This document shows positions 21,805 to 63,237 of a stretch of DNA of 64,000 nucleotides, piece by piece (positions within the stretch are counted from its first letter, which is position 1; every line of letters begins with the position of its first letter). The notes beneath the pieces are model-generated. The model was not told the DNA's origin. It did not search any database and saw nothing but the letters and a program-made list of their open reading frames with translations. Position numbers and translations under genes: made by a program. The stretch covers positions 62,001-126,000 of IMG/VR virus record IMGVR_UViG_3300049929_000026, one strand, 5' to 3'. This DNA comes from a virus.

Positions 21805-23430
21805 TCACTCCGCGGCCCCTGCTTCTGGGGCCAGAGAATCCGAACCGCTCGCAGTCTTGACGCCCTTCTTCCCGAGTCCGCGCTTCTTCGCGCCGGCCTC
21901 CTGCATCTTCGCTAGCGCGTGTTTCTTGCCCACATCGAGTAGATGATTCGCGCATGCGATACCATCCACCGATGCCTTCAATTGGCATTGCTCGCAACGA
22001 AACCAGGCCGGCACTCGCACAACCCGTTTCCAGACCTCGCCGTCGATGCGTTTGAACTCAACGACGTTGTCGCGGTGCTCAACGTTCGCTTCCGATGTGT
22101 GCGAGCAAGCCGGACATCGCTGCGAGACGAAGCGCGCGTTCTTGTAGTGCGTCCGGATCCCCACCTTGGTGAGCGCCCGATCGATCGTCTGCTGGCTTTC
22201 GTAGTAAGGCCACTGATGGATCAGTCGCTTCAGCTCGCTGTGGGCCTGTCCCTCGGTCTGCTTCTCGAAGTTCTCCCGGATCCCGGTCATGTTCTCCATA
22301 AACACGTCGCTAACTCCATGAAGCGTGCACCAGCGAGCGAAGTCCGCCGCGCGCTGCCGGATCCGGTCCTTGACTCGCCGCGCTTCTCGATCGCCGATGG
22401 CAGTCAGCGGGAGTTCGCGACGCTTCACGCCGCGTCCGCGGGACCCGCTGCCATGGGCACGCATTCCCTTTGCGATGCGGCGTCTCTGCGCGGCATATTG
22501 CTCACGCATCGCGATGATGTCAGTCCCCGGATCTTCCCACGTTGTGCCGTCCTCGGACATCGCCAGCATGAACACGTTGATCCCGAAGTTGCAGGCTACC
22601 GCATTGCCTGCCTTGTAGCCTTCGGCTCGGTGCTGAGACCACGAGATGAGCGCGAACCATTTACGCTTTCGCTCGTCGAACTTGATCCCGACCTTTCCAA
22701 GCTTGATCGACGCCTTCTCTTCGAGTTCGAACAGAGCTCGGTCCCTAGCCGCGCGCGCTGCCTTCATTACCTTGTCAGTGGCGTCTTTCGGGAGCGGTTT
22801 CTTGGCGGATCGCTCGAGCTCCACCACGCCTGCTCGGTTGCCCGCTCCACCCACCAGTTGCCTCCAAAGAACCACGGCGTTGCCGCCGCAAGGTGCAACA
22901 ACGAGAGACGTTGCACCTTTGCCGGTGCCAAAGAAAGGGAAGGTGAGCCGGGCATCGTCAGGTGTCCCTGAGACTTCGCAGTTGCGTCCCTCCGAGAAGA
23001 AGGACTTGCCGGACCCTTCGAACGTCGGCACGCCCGCGCGACCAGCCAGCAGATCCTTGAGATGCTGCCCAGCGAAGCGCGAAAGTATGTGGTCCGAGGT
23101 TTCGCTACACAGAACGTCCCCGGGCGGGACGTGAGCCGCTGCGTAGTCTTTGCCTGACTTCTTCAGCATGTACGCGCATCGTCGCTCCATGCCGCGAGCC
23201 CAATGGAATCGCAGCCGCTTACGGACATCGTTCTGCCAGGTCGTGCTTGGTTTCTGCTTCTCCGATATCGCCTCGAGTTGGGAAATGGCGCCAGGGTATA
23301 CGTCACGTAGCGAGAGATTCAGCGCCATCGGCAGTGTCTCGCGAAGGGCTCGCATTCGCGCTCCGAGTTCGCTCCAGCTACCATTTGCTGGCTTGACGAT
23401 CTCAACCTTGAGCGTCCCTGCCAGCTTCAT
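21805..23430 (-). CDS. compact Cas12-like (type V) effector, RuvC-I Asp replaced by Asn
   Basis: 541 residues. N-terminal segment VEIVKPANGSWSELGARMRA resembles the wedge start of compact Cas12 proteins, not the RLYPT start of TnpB. Wedge/REC region to ~265. RuvC-I strand AVACNFGINVF places Asn281 where D of (G)IDxG is expected. A bridge-like Arg-rich helix with GSGSRGRGVKRREL follows. RuvC-II has FMEN (Glu379). Zinc ribbon C439-C442/C479-C482. RuvC-III has VDGIACAN (Asp489). The C-terminus is Lys-rich. The Asn suggests a binding-only enzyme. It is coupled to a 63-residue gene upstream and followed by a repeat-spacer-repeat unit. A TnpB-derived protein that has become a regulator is the main alternative. 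Confidence 0.75.
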   Translation of the reverse strand: MKLAGTLKVEIVKPANGSWSELGARMRALRETLPMALNLSLRDVYPGAISQLEAISEKQKPSTTWQNDVRKRLRFHWARGMERRCAYMLKKSGKDYAAAHVPPGDVLCSETSDHILSRFAGQHLKDLLAGRAGVPTFEGSGKSFFSEGRNCEVSGTPDDARLTFPFFGTGKGATSLVVAPCGGNAVVLWRQLVGGAGNRAGVVELERSAKKPLPKDATDKVMKAARAARDRALFELEEKASIKLGKVGIKFDERKRKWFALISWSQHRAEGYKAGNAVACNFGINVFMLAMSEDGTTWEDPGTDIIAMREQYAAQRRRIAKGMRAHGSGSRGRGVKRRELPLTAIGDREARRVKDRIRQRAADFARWCTLHGVSDVFMENMTGIRENFEKQTEGQAHSELKRLIHQWPYYESQQTIDRALTKVGIRTHYKNARFVSQRCPACSHTSEANVEHRDNVVEFKRIDGEVWKRVVRVPAWFRCEQCQLKASVDGIACANHLLDVGKKHALAKMQEAGAKKRGLGKKGVKTASGSDSLAPEAGAAE

Positions 23431-38515: not shown

Positions 38516-38531
38516 GCGGTCAACTGACAAC
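38516..38531. promoter_or_regulatory. palindromic site after the ABC ATPase gene
   Basis: GCGGTCAACTGACAAC between the ATPase stop and the Cys-rich gene start; marks the downstream end of the transporter module. Confidence 0.6.
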
Positions 38532-38532
38532 T

Positions 38533-39372
38533 TTACAAGGTACGAAATCGATCTTTGACCTCGGCAACGAAGTTGTTGAACTCGCGCGTCGCGGTCAGGT
38601 CGGGCTGCCAAGCAAGCCCTTGCTCAATGAGGTTGTAGGTGGCCTTGATCGTCGCCCCTGGGATGGGCGCCCCACTCGCGTCTCGGTCGCGCCCGAACAG
38701 CCACAGCGTGTCCGAGATTGCTACCAGGCTAGCGATGTCGTGGGCAACCACGAAGATGGTGTTTCGCTCGTCAAGGTTCGCCACCTGTACGATGAGCTCG
38801 CAGACTTTGTCCTTCATCAGCGGGTCGAGCCCTGTGAACGGCTCGTCCATCACCACGAAGTGCTCGGAGCAGAGCAGCTCCTGGATGATGCTCACGCGCT
38901 GTCGCTGCCCGCCGGAAAGCTGCGCCGGGTAGAGGGCGGCCTTGTCCGTCAGTCCGAAGCGTTCGAGATACTCGCTCACCTTGGCTGGGCGCCCCGCCTT
39001 GGGTTGGTGCTCAAGAGCGACCAGCAGATTGCCGCGCACCGTGCGGTGCTCGAAGAGCGGATAGTTCTGAGCCACCATTCCCACGACGCCGGCGCGCACC
39101 GGCTTTTGAACGCGCTTGCCGCTCTCCTCTACCTCGACGGAAACCGTCCCCGTCGTCGGCTGCTGCAGCCCGCACAGGATCCGGCTGAACAAAGTCTTGC
39201 CCACCCCGCTCGGTCCCAAGATCCCAACGATCTGACCCTGGCAAACGCCGGGGCGCACGATGTCGCGCACTTCGGCCGTAATCGGTTTGAGGATGGTCGT
39301 GTCGCCGAGCTTCAGCGAGACGTTGCTGACGCTGACCAGTACCTCTTTTCGCTCATAGGGTAGAGGGATCAC
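38533..39372 (-). CDS. ABC transporter ATP-binding protein
   Basis: 279 residues from GTG 39372 (GTGA with the permease stop). Walker A GPSGVGKT, Q-loop in VAQNYPLF, signature LSGGQRQR, Walker B FVVMDEP, and switch HD in VVAHDIAS are all present, so it should be an active ATPase. Similar in type to NitT/TauT ATPases (SsuB/TauB). The C-terminal ~50 residues extend beyond the usual ATPase. Partners are the two genes upstream. Confidence 0.92.
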   Translation of the reverse strand: MIPLPYERKEVLVSVSNVSLKLGDTTILKPITAEVRDIVRPGVCQGQIVGILGPSGVGKTLFSRILCGLQQPTTGTVSVEVEESGKRVQKPVRAGVVGMVAQNYPLFEHRTVRGNLLVALEHQPKAGRPAKVSEYLERFGLTDKAALYPAQLSGGQRQRVSIIQELLCSEHFVVMDEPFTGLDPLMKDKVCELIVQVANLDERNTIFVVAHDIASLVAISDTLWLFGRDRDASGAPIPGATIKATYNLIEQGLAWQPDLTATREFNNFVAEVKDRFRTL

Positions 39373-40154
39373 GATCGCTCCAGCGTCAGTCGCGAATATG
39401 GGCACACGAATCCCTGCAGCATAGAGATCGCAGCGTCCTGAAGCGTCCCGACGACGGAGACGACAAGCAGGGCAGCGAACACCGCGTCGAGCTGGAAGTG
39501 TTTCCCATAGTCGATCATCAGCACGCCGACGCCGCCGCCGGATCGCACGAGCCCCTCGACCATCGTCAACATTGCCCAGCCCATTGCAGCGTTCTGCCGC
39601 GTCACCTCGAAAGCATCCGACGCCCTGCCCAAGATGACGACCTCCCAGACAGCCCGCCAGTCGCCCATGCGCAGCGAGCGTGCCTGATCAAACGCCGACC
39701 TCGGGATCGAGGCCACGATAGAAGCCATCGACGTAACCTGAAACACGGTCATCCCGAAGGTGAGCAGCGCGATCTTCAGTGGGTCACCGCCACCGAACGC
39801 GATGGTGAAGACCACGATGAGCCCAGGCAGGCTCAGAAAACGGGCTTTCCCCACGACGACAGCCAGCGGGCGCAGCGCGGCGACGACCGTCAGGTAGGAC
39901 AACGCGAGCGAGATCAGTGTCGACAGCAGTAGAGCTTCGAGGTTCACCCGCATGCTATGGAACACGAGCTCATAGAGCAGCCCATCGTCCCGACACAGCC
40001 GGGCGAGCGCGGACAAGATCTGAAGCGGCGAAGGGAGCAGGATCGCTGAGCCGAGGGTCCAGGCGGCGAGAGCGAATAGCGCCCAGGCTGCCCAGATCAT
40101 CGTCAGCGCGGTCCCCGTCACCGATCGATTCGGTCTCAGGGCATCGAGCATCAC
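39369..40154 (-). CDS. ABC transporter permease, NitT/TauT type
   Basis: 261 residues with five to six hydrophobic spans (e.g. LTMIWAAWALFALAAW, LISLALSYLTVVAAL, FLSLPGLIVVFTIAFGG). The loop RSLRMGDWRAVWEVVILGRA corresponds to the EAA coupling loop of SsuC/TauC-type permeases. Overlaps both neighbouring genes by 4 bp. Forms the membrane pore or, given the neighbours, may act in signalling or envelope remodelling rather than nutrient uptake. Confidence 0.85.
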   Translation of the reverse strand: MMLDALRPNRSVTGTALTMIWAAWALFALAAWTLGSAILLPSPLQILSALARLCRDDGLLYELVFHSMRVNLEALLLSTLISLALSYLTVVAALRPLAVVVGKARFLSLPGLIVVFTIAFGGGDPLKIALLTFGMTVFQVTSMASIVASIPRSAFDQARSLRMGDWRAVWEVVILGRASDAFEVTRQNAAMGWAMLTMVEGLVRSGGGVGVLMIDYGKHFQLDAVFAALLVVSVVGTLQDAAISMLQGFVCPYSRLTLERS

Positions 40155-41980
40155 GTACCGAGCACAATCTCGACCCGGCGATTCAGCGCTCGGCTTGCCT
40201 CATCATTCGCGCTGCCAGGAAGGGGCTTGGTGTCCCCGAAGCCGTCGACCGCAACGAAGCGGCGCGCCGGGAAGTGCGAGGTCGACTGGTTCATCAGCCA
40301 TGCCTTCACCGCTTCGGCCCGAGCCTTTGACAGCACGAGATTGTTCGCCGGATCGCCGGTGTTGTCCGTGTGTCCGTCGATCTCCACGGAGAGTTCATCC
40401 GCAATGAGCAGGCCGTCACGGAGCTCACGAAGCTGCTTCATGGAATCCGGCGTGAACGAGGCCTTGCCGGTTTCGAAGTTGATGCTCCACGAACGCTTCG
40501 ACACCACGTTTTTGATGTCGGTTTCGACCTGATAGACCGGCATGTCGGCCGTGGTCTTCGACTCGGAAGTCCTCGCCACGTCCTGCACGAACGACGTGTT
40601 CAGAACCTCGGAAACAGCCGGGTAGCTCGGGACGAGCTTCGGATATTGCTGGTGAACGATGTCGCCGAATACCGTGTAGGTCGCGGCGAACACATTGGCC
40701 GAGCCCGGCGCGAGCCCGAAGAGTTGCAGCGTGTCCTGCAGGTTGTTGATCGCCGAGCCGCCGAGCTCCACCATGACCCCGGTCTTGTCCGCCTCGGTCG
40801 CGCCCTTGTAGTACTTCAGCCAATACTCGGGCGACTCCTCCTTGTTGTAGACGAGCCACGATGCCTTGGCAGCGCGCTGCTGAGCTTCCGGAAAGCTCTT
40901 GATCTGATCGGCCGCCTCGTAGACCGCGGAGAGGAAGCCGTCGATCTCCTTGCGGTTGTCCTCGTCCCACTTCTTGATCCCGATCATGACAGCGGGCATC
41001 TGGCTTCGATATTCCTTAGTGGAGACGATCTTGACGAGCCCGCCCTTCTTCATGGCTACGTTCACGTCTACCGGCGTCCAGGATGATACGGCGTTGACGC
41101 ACACATGCTTGGTCTCGCCGTTCCGCTTTCCGTCGATGACCACCGGGCGGTCCTCGCACACGCCATTGATGTACGCCTCGCCTGCCTTCACGAAATCATC
41201 TGCCGCGTAGAAGTTGATCGCCGACGGGTCCCAGGTCTTCTCGTTCGGGTTGACCTTGATCTGGTTGTCACTTGCCCACTTCATCGGGATGTTCCAGTCG
41301 CCGCTGCGGAGCGCGACGGATAGCAAGCAACCTCGCGCGGCCTTCGGATTCGTAAGCCATTCGGCAGGTCCCTGGAGCTTGTCCTCGCCGCGGGAGTACC
41401 CGAACGCCGCGATGATCTCGCCATGGTATTGGGGCCCGAGTTTCAGCTTGTCGATCAGGCTGTTGATGTTGGCGAGGATCACTGCCGTGCCGTCACCCAT
41501 GTCGGTCATGAAATGGTAGCCCTCGGTCGGCTGCGCCTCGCCCTTGGCGAGCGCCGTAGCGAAGTCCACGAGCGACGTCTGCATCTTCCCGTCGTCGTCC
41601 TCACGAATGAGCTTCAGGTTCACCCCGTGCTTCTCCATGAGGCTGCCTCGGGTCGTCAGCGGTCCGCCGTTGGCGTACGGCAGAGCGAACTGCGCGTTCC
41701 ACGCCATATGGGCGGAGCGGATCTGAGGCGCCGCTACGACCGTCACGGCTTCGCTCGGTTGTGGTAGCGGCTTCACGTTTGCCGCATGCACAGCTTCGGG
41801 TGCTGACGGCAGATCGGGCAGGGCAGCTACTTGCGGAACGGCAGCGACTACCGATTCATTCGGCCCGAGCGCGTAGCCGTGGTCGTGCGCCCATTTGAGA
41901 CCAAATACACCGGCGACGATTGCACCGATAAGACCGATCATAACGAGTCGGTCTTTCTTCATTCTGAATTGAGTTGCCAT
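40151..41980 (-). CDS. membrane-anchored substrate-binding protein fused to an OmpA domain
   Basis: 609 residues. Residues ~12-30 form one membrane span (LVMIGLIGAIVAGVFGLKW) with no cleavage site, so the protein is anchored with the rest outside. Residues ~85-480 look like a periplasmic solute-binding domain (NitT/TauT type). Residues ~497-609 are an OmpA/MotB peptidoglycan-binding domain: INFETGKASFTPDS, IDGHTDNTGDPANN, SKARAEAVKAWL, RRVEI. It would link the transporter to the cell wall. Overlaps the permease gene. Confidence 0.85.
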   Translation of the reverse strand: MATQFRMKKDRLVMIGLIGAIVAGVFGLKWAHDHGYALGPNESVVAAVPQVAALPDLPSAPEAVHAANVKPLPQPSEAVTVVAAPQIRSAHMAWNAQFALPYANGGPLTTRGSLMEKHGVNLKLIREDDDGKMQTSLVDFATALAKGEAQPTEGYHFMTDMGDGTAVILANINSLIDKLKLGPQYHGEIIAAFGYSRGEDKLQGPAEWLTNPKAARGCLLSVALRSGDWNIPMKWASDNQIKVNPNEKTWDPSAINFYAADDFVKAGEAYINGVCEDRPVVIDGKRNGETKHVCVNAVSSWTPVDVNVAMKKGGLVKIVSTKEYRSQMPAVMIGIKKWDEDNRKEIDGFLSAVYEAADQIKSFPEAQQRAAKASWLVYNKEESPEYWLKYYKGATEADKTGVMVELGGSAINNLQDTLQLFGLAPGSANVFAATYTVFGDIVHQQYPKLVPSYPAVSEVLNTSFVQDVARTSESKTTADMPVYQVETDIKNVVSKRSWSINFETGKASFTPDSMKQLRELRDGLLIADELSVEIDGHTDNTGDPANNLVLSKARAEAVKAWLMNQSTSHFPARRFVAVDGFGDTKPLPGSANDEASRALNRRVEIVLGT

Positions 41981-42012
41981 TCTATTTTCCTTACCTTGTG
42001 TTGGTTGGGCGC

Positions 42013-43035
42013 TCAGAGCTTGTCGAACAAATTGCCGAACGACTGGGTTTTCTTTTCGGCGGCCGGAACAGCGTCGTCTTCGTCTGGCTGCAACGATGAA
42101 TCCGAGCCGATACGGAACTTGGTTTTACCGGTACCGCCTTCGAGCAGATTGCTCGCGCGCTTGTCCCAGGCTTCGAGCTTGGCCATTGCATCCAAGTCCG
42201 CAACCCCGTTCTCGAGATCCATCGTGTTGATGAAGTCCCGAGAGTCCTCCATGAATTGGTCGATCTCGCCGAGCTTGTTGAAGTAGTCGTTCTGCGTGCT
42301 GCTGAGCGCGAGATCGAATGCCTCGCGGTCCTTGTCAGCCTGAAGGATTGCCTTCGAAGCAGCCATCGCTCGGTAGCTCGCGCGAATCGTGGCTCGCTTC
42401 TCGGTCTCGTCTTCGACGGTGTCCTCGATGTCGGCGATCATGTACTTGGACGCTTCCTGCACCTTCTCCATGAGAGCGATGTGGGCCTTCACCTTGTTGC
42501 GCACCCCTTGATAGGTGAGCGTCGTTTTCTCCAGTCGACCGGCCTTCCGTGCCTGTAGCGAAAACTGCGTCTTCATGCCCTGCTCAGCACCGTGATCTCG
42601 CGCCTGCTTGGCGAGGTTCATACTGCGCTCATAGTCGGCCGTTTTGGTCGCGATGAGCTGGTCCAGCTTCCGAAGCTGAGCGCGAAGCTCGCCCAGCGCA
42701 TCGGCGATGCCCGCGTACTTCTTCTTGAGCTCCTCGACGTAGCCCTTGAGAATCGAAATCGGGTCGATATCGATCACGACCTGCGTCAGAGCCCGCGTCG
42801 CCATCTTGTAGCCCATCCAGAACAACCGATGCAGGTCCTTGCTGACGACAACCCACCCGACGATCGCAACGGCAGCGGCGAGAGCCGACGTGTAGAGCAG
42901 GTTTTCAAGCACCCGCTCGAGCAATGGCAAAATCAGGTCGACGCTCTTCAGCGCGAAGAATCCGCCCACTCCGATCCCGAGCCACGCGACCCAGTTCTCA
43001 GGGCGCTGCCAGGGTTTCTTTTGAGCTTCTTCCAT
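42013..43035 (-). CDS. membrane-associated coiled-coil (PspA-like) protein
   Basis: 340 residues. Two hydrophobic spans at ~15-32 and ~47-66 (LGIGVGGFFALKSV, ALAAAVAIVGWVVVS), then a long helical region (residues ~95-270) with the charged heptads of PspA/IM30-like proteins, and an acidic C-terminus. Probably binds the inner membrane and shapes or protects it. Lies directly upstream of the substrate-binding/OmpA gene. Confidence 0.65.
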   Translation of the reverse strand: MEEAQKKPWQRPENWVAWLGIGVGGFFALKSVDLILPLLERVLENLLYTSALAAAVAIVGWVVVSKDLHRLFWMGYKMATRALTQVVIDIDPISILKGYVEELKKKYAGIADALGELRAQLRKLDQLIATKTADYERSMNLAKQARDHGAEQGMKTQFSLQARKAGRLEKTTLTYQGVRNKVKAHIALMEKVQEASKYMIADIEDTVEDETEKRATIRASYRAMAASKAILQADKDREAFDLALSSTQNDYFNKLGEIDQFMEDSRDFINTMDLENGVADLDAMAKLEAWDKRASNLLEGGTGKTKFRIGSDSSLQPDEDDAVPAAEKKTQSFGNLFDKL

Positions 43036-43701
43036 TTAGAGGGCCTTCCCGTGTTCGGCTACTTGGGCCTTTTGCTGGTCGATGTGAGTCCGCGCCGCGT
43101 CGTATTGGAGCTTGAAACGCTGCTGAACGAGATCGAGTTTGTGCTGCGCCTCGGCGAGCGCTGACAGGTCTCCGGCACGCTTGTCGTTCAGGCCAATGAC
43201 CTGCTGCTCCAGGCTCGCGATCTGCGCCTTCGCAGCCGCGATCTGCGTGTCGTAGTCCTGCACGGCGTTGCGCTTGCTGCCGACGCGCGCGTTGAACTGG
43301 TCCTGTAGTTCCTTGGAGAAGACGCGGCTCTTCTCCTCCAGCGCCCCGATGTAGACGTCGTACTCGGACAGAACAGCCGAGATTGGCGTGCCTTTGGCGG
43401 CGAATATCTTGAGCGCAGTCTGAAAGCGCAGGGCTTCGACGGGGATCGCCGCTTCCAGCGTCGAGAGTAGCGATTGGAGCTCGGGGATCAGCTGCACGTT
43501 TGCGACCTTCAGCGCTTCTTGCAGAGCCGCCTTGGCCGACTCGTCATACTTGGCGATCCGCTCGGCATCGTCATTGGGCGCGGCTGCCGGCGCTGGCGCT
43601 ACAGCCGTCACAACGGGCACGGACGCCGCTCCAGTCTCCGCGACCTCTACGCTCTCGGCTAGACCGAGCGACGCCATGCCTTTTTTTAGGTTTTCGAACA
43701 T
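43036..43701 (-). CDS. coiled-coil PspA-like protein
   Basis: 221 residues. N-terminal amphipathic helix MFENLKKGMASLGLAE, an Ala/Pro/Val-rich linker, then long helices to the end (QDYDTQIAAAKAQIASLEQQ). Lacks membrane spans. The amphipathic start plus long coil resembles the PspA/IM30 plan. Stop and next start are adjacent (43036/43035), so it is likely co-translated with the 340-residue protein. Confidence 0.6.
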   Translation of the reverse strand: MFENLKKGMASLGLAESVEVAETGAASVPVVTAVAPAPAAAPNDDAERIAKYDESAKAALQEALKVANVQLIPELQSLLSTLEAAIPVEALRFQTALKIFAAKGTPISAVLSEYDVYIGALEEKSRVFSKELQDQFNARVGSKRNAVQDYDTQIAAAKAQIASLEQQVIGLNDKRAGDLSALAEAQHKLDLVQQRFKLQYDAARTHIDQQKAQVAEHGKAL

Positions 43702-44489
43702 GCTTTTTCCTTCGCTAAATCAAGGACCATCTCGACACACGGCGCTCCGTATTCGGCAAACCCAGTGCGCACTGTCAGGTTCGGCGATGGCTGGAACGTC
43801 GCGCGGCCATGCGTGTGCCCGCAAAGCACCTCGATCTCACGGTCTTGGTTCTTGCGCGCCCATTCGAGAAGAGCATCGCCGAGCGCCTTGTTTGTGAACC
43901 ACGGCAGCCAGTTCGCGTCGCTCTGTTTGCCGTTATAGACGCTCGACTCCGCGAACGGCGGGACGTGCGTCGCGAAGATGATGCGCTTCGCTGTGGTGCG
44001 CGAGAGAGTCTCCAGCGTCTTTTGGTGGAAGTGGTCGCCGATCATGCGCAGCGCTGGGATCAACGTTCCTGACTGCACGCACTCACGAAGGTCTTGAATC
44101 TCCGACCAATCGTTCAGCTGAACGCTGCTAGTTTCGGGTGACCCAAACCGAGCGTCGTACCAGCCATCTACCCCGCAGAGATCTGCATCGGGAGTAAGGT
44201 GGAATACCGCACCGGAATCCAGATACGAGCAGCCGAATGCCTTTCGGACCGAGCGCGCAACGCTGGCAAACTCGCCGCCGTAGAAGTCGTGGTTGCCGAG
44301 TACGAAACAAACTGGCTTTCGGTAGTTGCGCTGAAAGACTTCGAGCAATCGAATGACCGTGCGCGCCGTACCTATGTCTCCAGTGATGACGCAGGCATCC
44401 GACACGCCGGCCGTCTTCGACGCAAGGTCGATTGTTTTACCGTGCCCTGCATGATCGAAATGTGGATCGGTTATCCAGGCGAGCCTCAT
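43686..44489 (-). CDS. calcineurin-like metallophosphoesterase
   Basis: 267 residues. All metal motifs are visible: DPHFDH (D8, H10), GDIG, GNHDF, HVPPF and GHTHGR. So it should be a two-metal phosphoesterase. Its 3' end overlaps the coiled-coil gene by 16 bp. First gene of the transporter/coiled-coil module. Substrate unknown (nucleotide, phospholipid or phosphoprotein possible). Confidence 0.88.
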   Translation of the reverse strand: MRLAWITDPHFDHAGHGKTIDLASKTAGVSDACVITGDIGTARTVIRLLEVFQRNYRKPVCFVLGNHDFYGGEFASVARSVRKAFGCSYLDSGAVFHLTPDADLCGVDGWYDARFGSPETSSVQLNDWSEIQDLRECVQSGTLIPALRMIGDHFHQKTLETLSRTTAKRIIFATHVPPFAESSVYNGKQSDANWLPWFTNKALGDALLEWARKNQDREIEVLCGHTHGRATFQPSPNLTVRTGFAEYGAPCVEMVLDLAKEKACSKT

Positions 44490-44634: not shown

Positions 44635-45792
44635 TCATGGCGCTGCGCCGTGACTTCTCGGATCGCCGGCGAGCTCTTGAGCAGCTGCACCTCCCCGACG
44701 GCTCTGCCCGAGCCGTTTGATATTATTTGCGGCGTTGACGTCGCGGTCCTCGACCAATCCGCAGTGCGGACAATCGTGAACGCGCGTGCCGAGGTCCTTT
44801 CGAACCACCGTATCGCAGCCGCTACACCTTTGCGATGTCCCACGTGGATCCACTTCGAAGAAATCTCGCCCGGCGCTTTCAGCCTTGGCTTTGAGGATCG
44901 TAGTGAACTGAGACCACGAGGCATCAAGAACTTGTTTTGCGAGGCGACCACGAGCGAGGCCGGCCACGTTGAGTTTTTCTACGGCGATCGAATCGAAGCG
45001 CTGCGCGAGTCCGAGCGCGACCTTGTGCTGGAAATCGAGGCGCGTCCGGCGGATCTTGTCGTACCGCTTCGCGAGAAGCTCGACGGCTTTACGGCGACGA
45101 CGCGATCCGCGTTTCCGACGCGCAACACGTCGCTGAGCGATAACGATCTCTCGCTGGGCGGTCTCGAAGAAGCGCGGATTAGCGACCATCTCCCCGTTAC
45201 TGAGCGCAGCGAACGTCGCGATCCCGACATCGATCCCAACGCTCTGCCCCGTCGAAGCCGCTGGCTTCGACGGCACATTGTCGCACGCAAATGCGATATA
45301 CCAGTGCCCATCACCAGAGAGAGTGACCGACGCGGTCTTGATGCGGCCCTCGATCGGTCGGTGGATCCTGATCTTGACATTACCGATGCCGTGGATGCGC
45401 ACACGTTTCCCGCCCGCACAAAGCACCGCCCCACCCTTGCCGGCTTGAGGAAAGGTGAATGTACGGTAGCGGCCGGGTCCCTTGAATCGCGGGAACCCCG
45501 CCTTTTTCTTAGCCTTTACCCTTCGAAAAAACGCGCGATAGGACTTCTCCAGTCTTTTGAGGACGTCCTGAAGCACTTGCGCGTAAATATTCGCGAACTC
45601 CGGACGCATCGCCTTGACCTCCGGTAGGTCGCCCATCTGCGAATAACAAGTGACCTTTACTCCTGCTCGGTACGCCGCGATGCGTTCTTGCAGGCTCGCG
45701 TTGTAAAGCTCACGCAGCAACTCGAGCGTGCCCCGCATCGTCGCCTCTTGAGCGCGAGTTGGATAAAGGCGATAGCGGAAAACACGAATCAC
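44635..45792 (-). CDS. tnpB: TnpB, IS605/IS607-type RNA-guided nuclease
   Basis: 385 residues from GTG 45792 (MIRVFRYRLYPTRAQEATMR after the start codon), preceded by AGG. RuvC-I VGIDVGIATFAALS has the catalytic Asp, RuvC-II VEKLNVAG the Glu, RuvC-III EDRDVNAANNI the Asp. Zinc ribbon CSGC...CPHC. All catalytic residues are intact, unlike the Cas12-like protein at 21805-23430. No tnpA lies nearby, so the element would need a transposase in trans. It interrupts the transporter and methyltransferase blocks. Confidence 0.9.
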   Translation of the reverse strand: MIRVFRYRLYPTRAQEATMRGTLELLRELYNASLQERIAAYRAGVKVTCYSQMGDLPEVKAMRPEFANIYAQVLQDVLKRLEKSYRAFFRRVKAKKKAGFPRFKGPGRYRTFTFPQAGKGGAVLCAGGKRVRIHGIGNVKIRIHRPIEGRIKTASVTLSGDGHWYIAFACDNVPSKPAASTGQSVGIDVGIATFAALSNGEMVANPRFFETAQREIVIAQRRVARRKRGSRRRRKAVELLAKRYDKIRRTRLDFQHKVALGLAQRFDSIAVEKLNVAGLARGRLAKQVLDASWSQFTTILKAKAESAGRDFFEVDPRGTSQRCSGCDTVVRKDLGTRVHDCPHCGLVEDRDVNAANNIKRLGQSRRGGAAAQELAGDPRSHGAAP

Positions 45793-45882
45793 GTGGTACC
45801 TATTCTGAGCCCGTTGAAAGCGGGCCACGCATCCAGGTCGTGTAGCAGCGACGCTGGATGCTCTTCATTTGTAGCATGGACG

Positions 45883-61944: not shown

Positions 61945-62028
61945 GCTCAGGTGGCGGAACTGGCAGACGCACCGCCTTGAGGTGGCGGCGCCGTAACTGG
62001 CGTGGAGGTTCAAATCCTCTCCTGAGCA
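61945..62028 (+). tRNA. tRNA-Leu (anticodon GAG)
   Basis: GCTCAGG and CCTGAGC form a perfect acceptor stem (61945-61951, 62021-62027) with discriminator A. Anticodon stem CCGCC/GGCGG encloses the loop TTGAGGT, so the anticodon is GAG. A long variable arm and GTTCAAATC T-loop are present, as in tRNA-Leu. The CCA end is not encoded. Its 3' half lies beside the integrase and is the probable attachment core. Confidence 0.9.
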
Positions 62029-62031
62029 CTG

Positions 62032-62067: not shown

Positions 62068-63237
62068 CTACTCCGTCGGCCCATCGGCAGGCCTGCCTTG
62101 CAGCTGTGGCGGACCCGGCGCAGGCGGCAGCTTGGCCACCCGATCGGACTCGAGCAGGTCCACCGCCGCCCGCTTCGACGGCTTCACGTACCGTGCCGTG
62201 GTCGACATCAGCTTGTGCCCCGCCATGTGCTGGGCCCCCGCAATGTTCTTCGTGTTCTCCAGCCAGTGGGTGATCCGCGCCGACCGCAGGTGGGCTCCCG
62301 CAAACAGGTCGGCCCGGTGCTTGGGCAGGGCATCCAGGACCGCTTTCTTCAGCTGCCCCCGGTAGTCGTGATGGCCGAAAATCACCCCCTGCTTGGGACA
62401 CACGCTGTCCAGTGCCGCCCGCGCCGCCCCCGTCAGCGGAACCTCGCGCTGATAGCGGCTCTTGTCGATGACGACCTCGATCACAATCTCCTGCCGCCCC
62501 TTGCCGTAGTGCTCCGGTACGCTCAGCAAGTCGAGCGTCTCGGGTCGCAAGCTGGTCTCGTAGGCCACGATGAACCGTGCCTGCACCGGGAACGGAGCCA
62601 CCTTCTTGGACTCGCTCCACTCGGGCAGCTTCGCCAAGATCGCCCGCACCTCGTCCGGGCTGATCTCGATGGCCGCCGATCGGCGACGCTTCTCGAAGCG
62701 AGTCCCGGGCACCCGCTTGGGGATCCCTTCGATCGCCATCTTGGTCGGCAGGTACCCCTGGCCCGGCCGAGCCGCCCCGTCGGGGCCGAAGTCGTACAGC
62801 CACGCCGCGAACGAGCGTAGCGCCGAGAGCTCCTTCCTGACCGTGACCGCCAGCACGGCTCTGAGCCGGAGGTTCCGGTACTCGACCGCCGTCTGGTCGT
62901 TGAGGTCGTGAAGCCCCTTGAAAAAGTTCAGCCAGTGGCTCTCGGCGTAGCCCTTCCAGGTCTTGATCGTCGAGAAGTCGTGGGTCGCGGTGAGGAAATA
63001 AAGCCATTGTTCGATCAGGCCTTCAAGAGCTTCGACGTGCTTGGTTGGCTTGGGCTGGGGCTTTGCGACTCGCGAGACGACCTCGGCGTAGAGTCGCGCC
63101 GCTTCACGCGGAGCCAGCTCGGGATCGCTGGTTTCGGTGTTGATGTCGTACTTCTTGCCGGCCCACGTGAAGCGGACCCAGAAGGAGTGGCCTTCTTTGC
63201 GTTGCTTGCACTTCCAACCGCTTGCTGGTCTACCCAT
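62068..63237 (-). CDS. int: tyrosine-type integrase
   Basis: 389 residues. N-terminal arm-binding region (FWVRFTWAGKKYDINTETSD), SAM-like core-binding domain (LEGLIEQWLYFLTATHDFST), catalytic domain with Arg in YETSLRPETLDLL, HLRSARITHWLEN (H-x-x-R), HMAGHKLMSTTARY (His and nucleophilic Tyr). Adjacent tRNA-Leu and direct repeats indicate integration at tRNA-Leu. Overlaps the excisionase gene by 223 bp. Confidence 0.9.
   Translation of the reverse strand: MGRPASGWKCKQRKEGHSFWVRFTWAGKKYDINTETSDPELAPREAARLYAEVVSRVAKPQPKPTKHVEALEGLIEQWLYFLTATHDFSTIKTWKGYAESHWLNFFKGLHDLNDQTAVEYRNLRLRAVLAVTVRKELSALRSFAAWLYDFGPDGAARPGQGYLPTKMAIEGIPKRVPGTRFEKRRRSAAIEISPDEVRAILAKLPEWSESKKVAPFPVQARFIVAYETSLRPETLDLLSVPEHYGKGRQEIVIEVVIDKSRYQREVPLTGAARAALDSVCPKQGVIFGHHDYRGQLKKAVLDALPKHRADLFAGAHLRSARITHWLENTKNIAGAQHMAGHKLMSTTARYVKPSKRAAVDLLESDRVAKLPPAPGPPQLQGRPADGPTE

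Follow-up and report, generated by a model that had tools for sequence, protein, structure and literature searches.

Bacterial operons in which PspA or a TM-Snf7 protein is encoded together with an AAA+ ATPase, an ABC ATPase, a permease and a PBPB–OmpA fusion protein have been predicted by Ravi et al. 2024 (mSystems, PMC11237479; example OGG56892.1), and it has been proposed there, likewise as a prediction, that membrane remodelling is tied to solute transport. The AAA+ ATPase is not an essential feature of these operons, as its association 'may occur' (PMC11237479). This kind of system is thus already known by prediction, and what is new is its wide carriage by large phages and its compact form that lacks the AAA+ ATPase. 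No description of a phage-borne form was found in the open-access literature, the nearest case being the pspA-like gene that is paired with terD in the Jug phages (PMC12363816). A PspA-like gene in a huge phage is common to both, but the Jug gene is linked to terD, and no ABC transporter, permease or OmpA is mentioned in that paper.

The locus considered here lies in a window of 64,000 nucleotides, the whole stretch of DNA that was analysed, which corresponds to bases 62001–126000 of a 137,618-bp IMG/VR virus record. As a tail sheath, a tape measure, a portal, a terminase large subunit, a major head protein and DnaB are all encoded in the window, it comes from a tailed phage with a contractile tail, and the carrier of the module is a genuine myophage. 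The phage may be temperate, since a tRNA-Leu gene beside a tyrosine recombinase gene makes lysogeny possible; the pair is a possible attachment site, and a pattern search of the phage's own genome at this tRNA-Leu gave an uninformative result. Elsewhere in the window (21805-23430, minus strand), a gene encodes a 541-aa protein that weakly matches Cas12f1-like TNB and OrfB_IS605 and also matches phrog_506 (4e-13); it may be either a divergent form of TnpB or a compact nuclease that resembles Cas12.

Six open reading frames on the minus strand (44489-38533) had been regarded as six tightly coupled genes in an earlier note on this DNA. The same six were recovered and all are real (Table 1), but the conserved module consists of only five genes, in the order COIL-TMC-SBP-PERM-ATP, where SBP denotes SBP-OmpA. 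The remaining gene, which overlaps COIL by 16 bp, does encode a metallophosphoesterase, as had been stated, with a Metallophos match, but none of 177 related module loci contains a homologue of it, and it was therefore ruled out as a member of the module. Immediately upstream of it lies an IS605-type TnpB gene (397 aa, 44635-45828, minus strand).

Table 1. Positions of the module genes and of neighbouring features in the window
Feature	Position	Strand	Evidence
COIL, 221-aa soluble coiled-coil protein, first module gene	43036..43701	-	ORF; conserved first position; no TM
TMC, 340-aa, two N-terminal TM spans followed by a predicted PspA/ESCRT-III-like helical hairpin	42013..43035	-	TM, PF04012 in family, hhalign, Foldseek
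SBP-OmpA, 609-aa, NitT/TauT-type solute-binding domain fused to OmpA domain	40151..41980	-	PF00691, AF2 fold, TM prediction
PERM, 261-aa NitT/TauT-type ABC permease	39369..40154	-	profile and NCBIfam matches
ATP, ABC ATPase, up to 290 aa, N-terminus uncertain	38533..39405	-	PF00005 9e-26
Calcineurin-like metallophosphoesterase, neighbour upstream of COIL	43686..44489	-	PF00149 3.9e-10; phrog_1649 9e-18
tRNA-Leu(GAG) gene	61945-62029	+	adjoins tyrosine recombinase
Tyrosine recombinase	62068-63237	-	PF00589 2e-8

The solute-binding protein, the permease and the ATPase are all homologous to the TauABC/NrtABC set, in case of the solute-binding protein by fold and not by sequence. The latter has one N-terminal TM helix and an OmpA C-terminal domain at residues 502-595 (PF00691, E=1.6e-15), and in its AF2 model (pLDDT 85) the SBP lobe matches TauA (6ssy, TMt 0.72), NrtA (2g29, 0.64) and CmpA (2i48, 0.62) in the PDB, and OmpA-like TagL (7bba, TM 0.90) is a further fold match. 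The permease matches CmpB (2.5e-10) and NrtB (4e-7) by profile and TauC (2.7e-7) in NCBIfam, and the ATPase, whose gene overlaps that of the permease by 37 bp, has all motifs intact (Walker A GPSGVGKT, LSGGQ, VVMDEP and the H-loop). A membrane-anchored solute-binding domain fused to OmpA, a NitT/TauT-type permease and an ATPase with intact motifs had been noticed before from the letters alone, and these three assignments all hold. The module thus has the SBP fold and the permease homology (CmpB, NrtB) in common with the NitT/TauT importers TauABC, SsuABC, NrtABCD and CmpABCD, but it differs from them in that the solute-binding protein is membrane-anchored and joined to an OmpA domain of the peptidoglycan-binding type and that PspA-like proteins are encoded in the operon.

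Of the two PspA-like coiled-coil proteins that the earlier note had postulated, only one can be related to PspA. The two membrane spans that had been seen in one of them are present in TMC (residues 21-39 and 46-64) and are followed by long helices. PF04012 (PspA_IM30) is matched by 6 of 28 members of the TMC family (best 2.7e-8), whereas the window TMC alone gives no PspA match in Pfam at E<=0.01 and hence lies under the PF04012 gathering threshold. In hhalign, a viral-only TMC profile (A12) could be aligned (P=84%, E=7e-6) with the bona fide PspA that is encoded in an Acidobacteria module; this alignment takes in the N-terminal helix and the long hairpin, with a DP motif placed over the NPE of PspA. 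VIPP1 was the best Foldseek match of the TMC model in the PDB, but it was weak (E=0.008, with E-values >0.001), and so is the AF2 model itself (pLDDT 68). By these comparisons, the TMC family appears to be related to the PspA/Vipp1 (IM30) family of ESCRT-III proteins, with which it has PF04012 in some members and the hairpin alignment in common, the VIPP1 fold matches being weak, but in sequence the phage TMC is only a distant relative, and its two TM helices precede the PspA-like part. COIL is indeed a coiled-coil protein, but no evidence was found that this 221-aa protein is itself a PspA. As to the operons of Ravi et al., the PBPB–OmpA fusion and the adjacent ABC ATPase and permease are present in the window, the PspA or TM-Snf7 component is represented, if remotely, by the two-TM TMC with its predicted PspA-like hairpin, and the AAA+ ATPase is absent. 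Both forms thus share PspA or a TM-bearing Snf7/PspA relative, an ABC ATPase, a permease and the SBP–OmpA fusion, but the phage form does without the bacterial-type AAA+ ATPase, has a fixed five-gene order and includes an extra soluble coil.

A full transporter of this kind had been thought to be very rare in phages, which was not borne out. The window SBP as single query found nothing in IMG/VR, and an alignment with its homologue from LR756500.1, an AT-rich huge phage of 462 kb in GenBank, was needed; with that alignment, a single IMG/VR scan gave 128 relatives, of which the best 80 were kept. In LR756500.1 itself, all five genes recur in this order, with identities of 20–39%, and gene order is retained across the relatives at 20–40% protein identity. 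All five families are found in order in 70 of 98 viral loci, and 17 further loci lack only a recognisable COIL; these 98 loci are not deduplicated, so that some contigs are counted twice, and many of the incomplete loci end at contig ends. Among the listed contigs, 25 of 87 have at least 200 kb and 46 of 87 at least 100 kb. A terminase match was obtained in 28 of 49 large records, and the addition of further terminase families to the search gave few extra matches; a missing match is uninformative, as the IMG/VR copy of the huge phage LR756500.1 (G006) gives none either. The gaps between SBP and PERM (median 356 bp) and between PERM and ATP often hold other genes in phages, and tight co-transcription is therefore not universal. 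In LR756500-like phages (L011, L012, L015, L151-L153, L155-L157, L159, L161-L164), a protein of some 165 aa with a signal peptide is encoded between SBP and PERM, sometimes in several copies; it gave no match in a Pfam search and is possibly an outer-membrane barrel. In one phage clade, an additional NMT1-like SBP (PF16868 6.5e-26) is encoded right after the module ATPase (L124, 13936-14868, with relatives in L144 and L146).

When 84,980 species genomes were scanned, 284 relatives were found, the best 80 of which were kept, and the carriers are Acidobacteriota, Armatimonadota, Myxococcota, Bacteroidota, including dozens of Hymenobacter, and one Parcubacteria MAG. A search of gene order in phages and chromosomes, as had been recommended, recovered the five-gene form in both, on bacterial chromosomes in Acidobacteriota, in Bacteroidota and in the Parcubacteria MAG, but at none of the other loci together with the phosphoesterase. 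Members of the COIL family come first, as in the window, in 70 of the 98 viral loci and in at least 27 of the 80 bacterial loci. In other Acidobacteriota, a genuine PspA (PF04012 3.3e-15) stands in place of TMC, in operons that read COIL–PspA–SBP/OmpA–PERM–ATP, followed by a TM coiled-coil protein and an AAA+ ATPase. COIL was also considered as the counterpart of the coil in this PspA/AAA+ form, which was rejected for want of a convincing profile match (P=6%). A homologue of the AAA+ ATPase of the bacterial operon (L028) was found near the module in none of the viral loci, and a bacterial-type AAA+ partner in phages was therefore dropped. A classical AAA+ protein that differs from the bacterial one is encoded at variable positions within about 11 kb of the module in 12 viral loci (e.g., L135, 15908-17284) and is absent from the window; it could be a stand-in for the bacterial partner or an ordinary phage gene.

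Copies from phages and from bacteria are intermingled in a tree of 71 viral and 34 bacterial SBP-OmpA proteins (105 in all) that was built by a quick maximum-likelihood method. Along this tree, the label changes between viral and bacterial at least nine times, seven of these changes being forced by starred branches. Several large clades contain only phages, and the window copy belongs to a clade of eight phages (SH-aLRT 99). No relatives of the window capsid or terminase could be detected in those phages whose modules are nearest, so that horizontal transfer between phage lineages is the most likely history of the module, and vertical inheritance with the capsid lineage is unsupported. All five genes are under purifying selection, as judged by a comparison of the window with the locus L004 (pN 0.20–0.34, pS 0.67–0.76). 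About 30 residues of the SBP lobe, among them W94, D128, G198-E199-D200, D228, W301, P303 and D305, are at least 95% identical in phages and bacteria alike, suggesting, at the level of sequence, that both share a ligand. In the OmpA domain, D539 and R554, 15 residues apart, are retained in 98–100%, and we take them to be the diaminopimelate-binding pair of OmpA-like domains. The ATPase motifs are conserved across the module, with apparent exceptions that are mainly APSG-GK[ST] variants of Walker A or LSGGM variants; in one clade of phage ATPases, Walker A seemed to be lost, but this was an artefact of the search pattern, as these proteins have APSG-GK[ST]. In L145 (6533-8395), an intein that reads like a LAGLIDADG homing type is inserted exactly inside the Walker A P-loop of the module ATPase, a site that is typical of functional enzymes.

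That bacterial DNA has been misassembled into the phage contig, a possibility raised at the outset, is excluded by the even GC content (0.608 in the module block, 0.616 and 0.611 in the flanks), by the hallmark phage genes that flank the block, with sheath, portal, terminase and capsid to one side and DnaB to the opposite side, and by the recurrence of the module in numerous phage contigs that are independent of each other, including LR756500.1, the large records with a terminase match and L101, where the flanking genes encode proteins that read as phage replication proteins. Some contigs of the set may be bacterial, such as L109, a 478,840-bp IMG/VR contig that groups with Armatimonadota, has bacterial-type extra coil genes, gives no terminase match and is probably misclassified, but it is hardly conceivable that an artefact by misassembly or misclassification accounts for the module. 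The genes could also be auxiliary metabolic genes for an ordinary high-affinity importer that feeds the infected cell with a scarce small solute, be it sulfonate, phosphonate, nitrate- or bicarbonate-like, with the coils as accessories. A solute-binding protein and a permease of the TauA/NrtA/CmpA class, the intact ATPase, the strongly conserved SBP-lobe residues in phages and bacteria, and the additional NMT1-like SBP of one phage clade are consistent with this, but no recurring nutrient-utilisation enzymes were seen beside the module in phages or bacteria, where the constant partner is the PspA-like protein, and a fusion with OmpA was not seen in the TauA/NrtA/CmpA relatives that were found, which makes a plain importer rather unlikely.

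Exclusion of other phages had been suggested alongside envelope protection. As a device for superinfection exclusion or anti-defence, a wall-anchored, membrane-stabilising complex could block DNA entry or the depolarisation caused by rival phages or by abortive-infection pores, and PspA-type proteins do counter membrane leakage, as is known from E. coli PspA. The presence of the module in many large phages with unrelated capsids would agree with a horizontal spread of competition genes, but nothing speaks specifically for superinfection exclusion: the PADLOC protein sets gave no match to a defence system beyond generic ABC and MotB/OmpA similarity to parts of MADS and Zorya, and the module is equally a chromosomal operon in ordinary gene neighbourhoods of Hymenobacter and Acidobacteriota, so that we consider such a role improbable. 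Even less is to be expected of an ATP-driven mechanical or sensory complex of the FtsEX/EnvC kind, in which SBP-OmpA would report the state of the wall or of the solute with no net transport. The predicted simultaneous binding of the solute-binding protein to wall and membrane, the PspA-type partner, and a distinctive conserved C-terminus of the ATPases (GLAWQP), which lies beyond the core to which general ABC families match, would fit such a complex, but the permease is by homology a NitT/TauT importer type and not an FtsX or MacB type.

Envelope protection, another suggestion of that note, is favoured by the bacterial grouping of the same PspA, ABC and SBP-OmpA components, there with PspA and AAA+, which Ravi et al. 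2024 read as a link between remodelling and transport. We give about an even chance to the reading that the module is a phage version of this bacterial PspA-ABC-SBP/OmpA operon and serves envelope maintenance, by coupling solute capture at the wall to a PspA-type stabilisation of the membrane. The set and order of the genes, the fold assignments, the conservation of catalytic and wall-binding residues, the purifying selection and the broad occurrence in phages are shown by the sequences; its physical assembly, the direction of transport, the ligand and the benefit for the phage we infer as follows. The N-terminal helix of SBP-OmpA would hold the protein to the inner membrane, and its OmpA domain would hold it to the peptidoglycan; it would catch a small solute, anionic or zwitterionic and of the same class as nitrate, bicarbonate or taurine, and hand this over to the permease, which the ATPase would drive. 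At the permease, the two-TM PspA-like TMC and the soluble COIL may form polymers on the cytoplasmic face of the membrane and stabilise it or change its shape, and the solute flux, or the state of the wall-anchored binding protein, would thereby be coupled to membrane repair. The phage would gain from this a host envelope and a proton-motive force that are kept intact through a long infection or lysogeny.

It is also possible, though we regard this only as a tentative generalisation, that many unrelated lineages of large phages have repeatedly acquired an ESCRT-III-like machine that is wired to a wall-anchored ABC importer, as a phage-encoded 'phage shock' response that holds the envelope of the infected cell together while a long infection or lysogeny lasts. 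Phages do not usually carry anything close to a complete ABC system that spans the envelope and has an ESCRT-III-type partner, and the recurrence of the module in phages with unrelated capsids indicates that it pays for itself. The bacterial operon thereby gains a second, independently selected setting, and its function may perhaps be easier to find in a phage or a lysogen.
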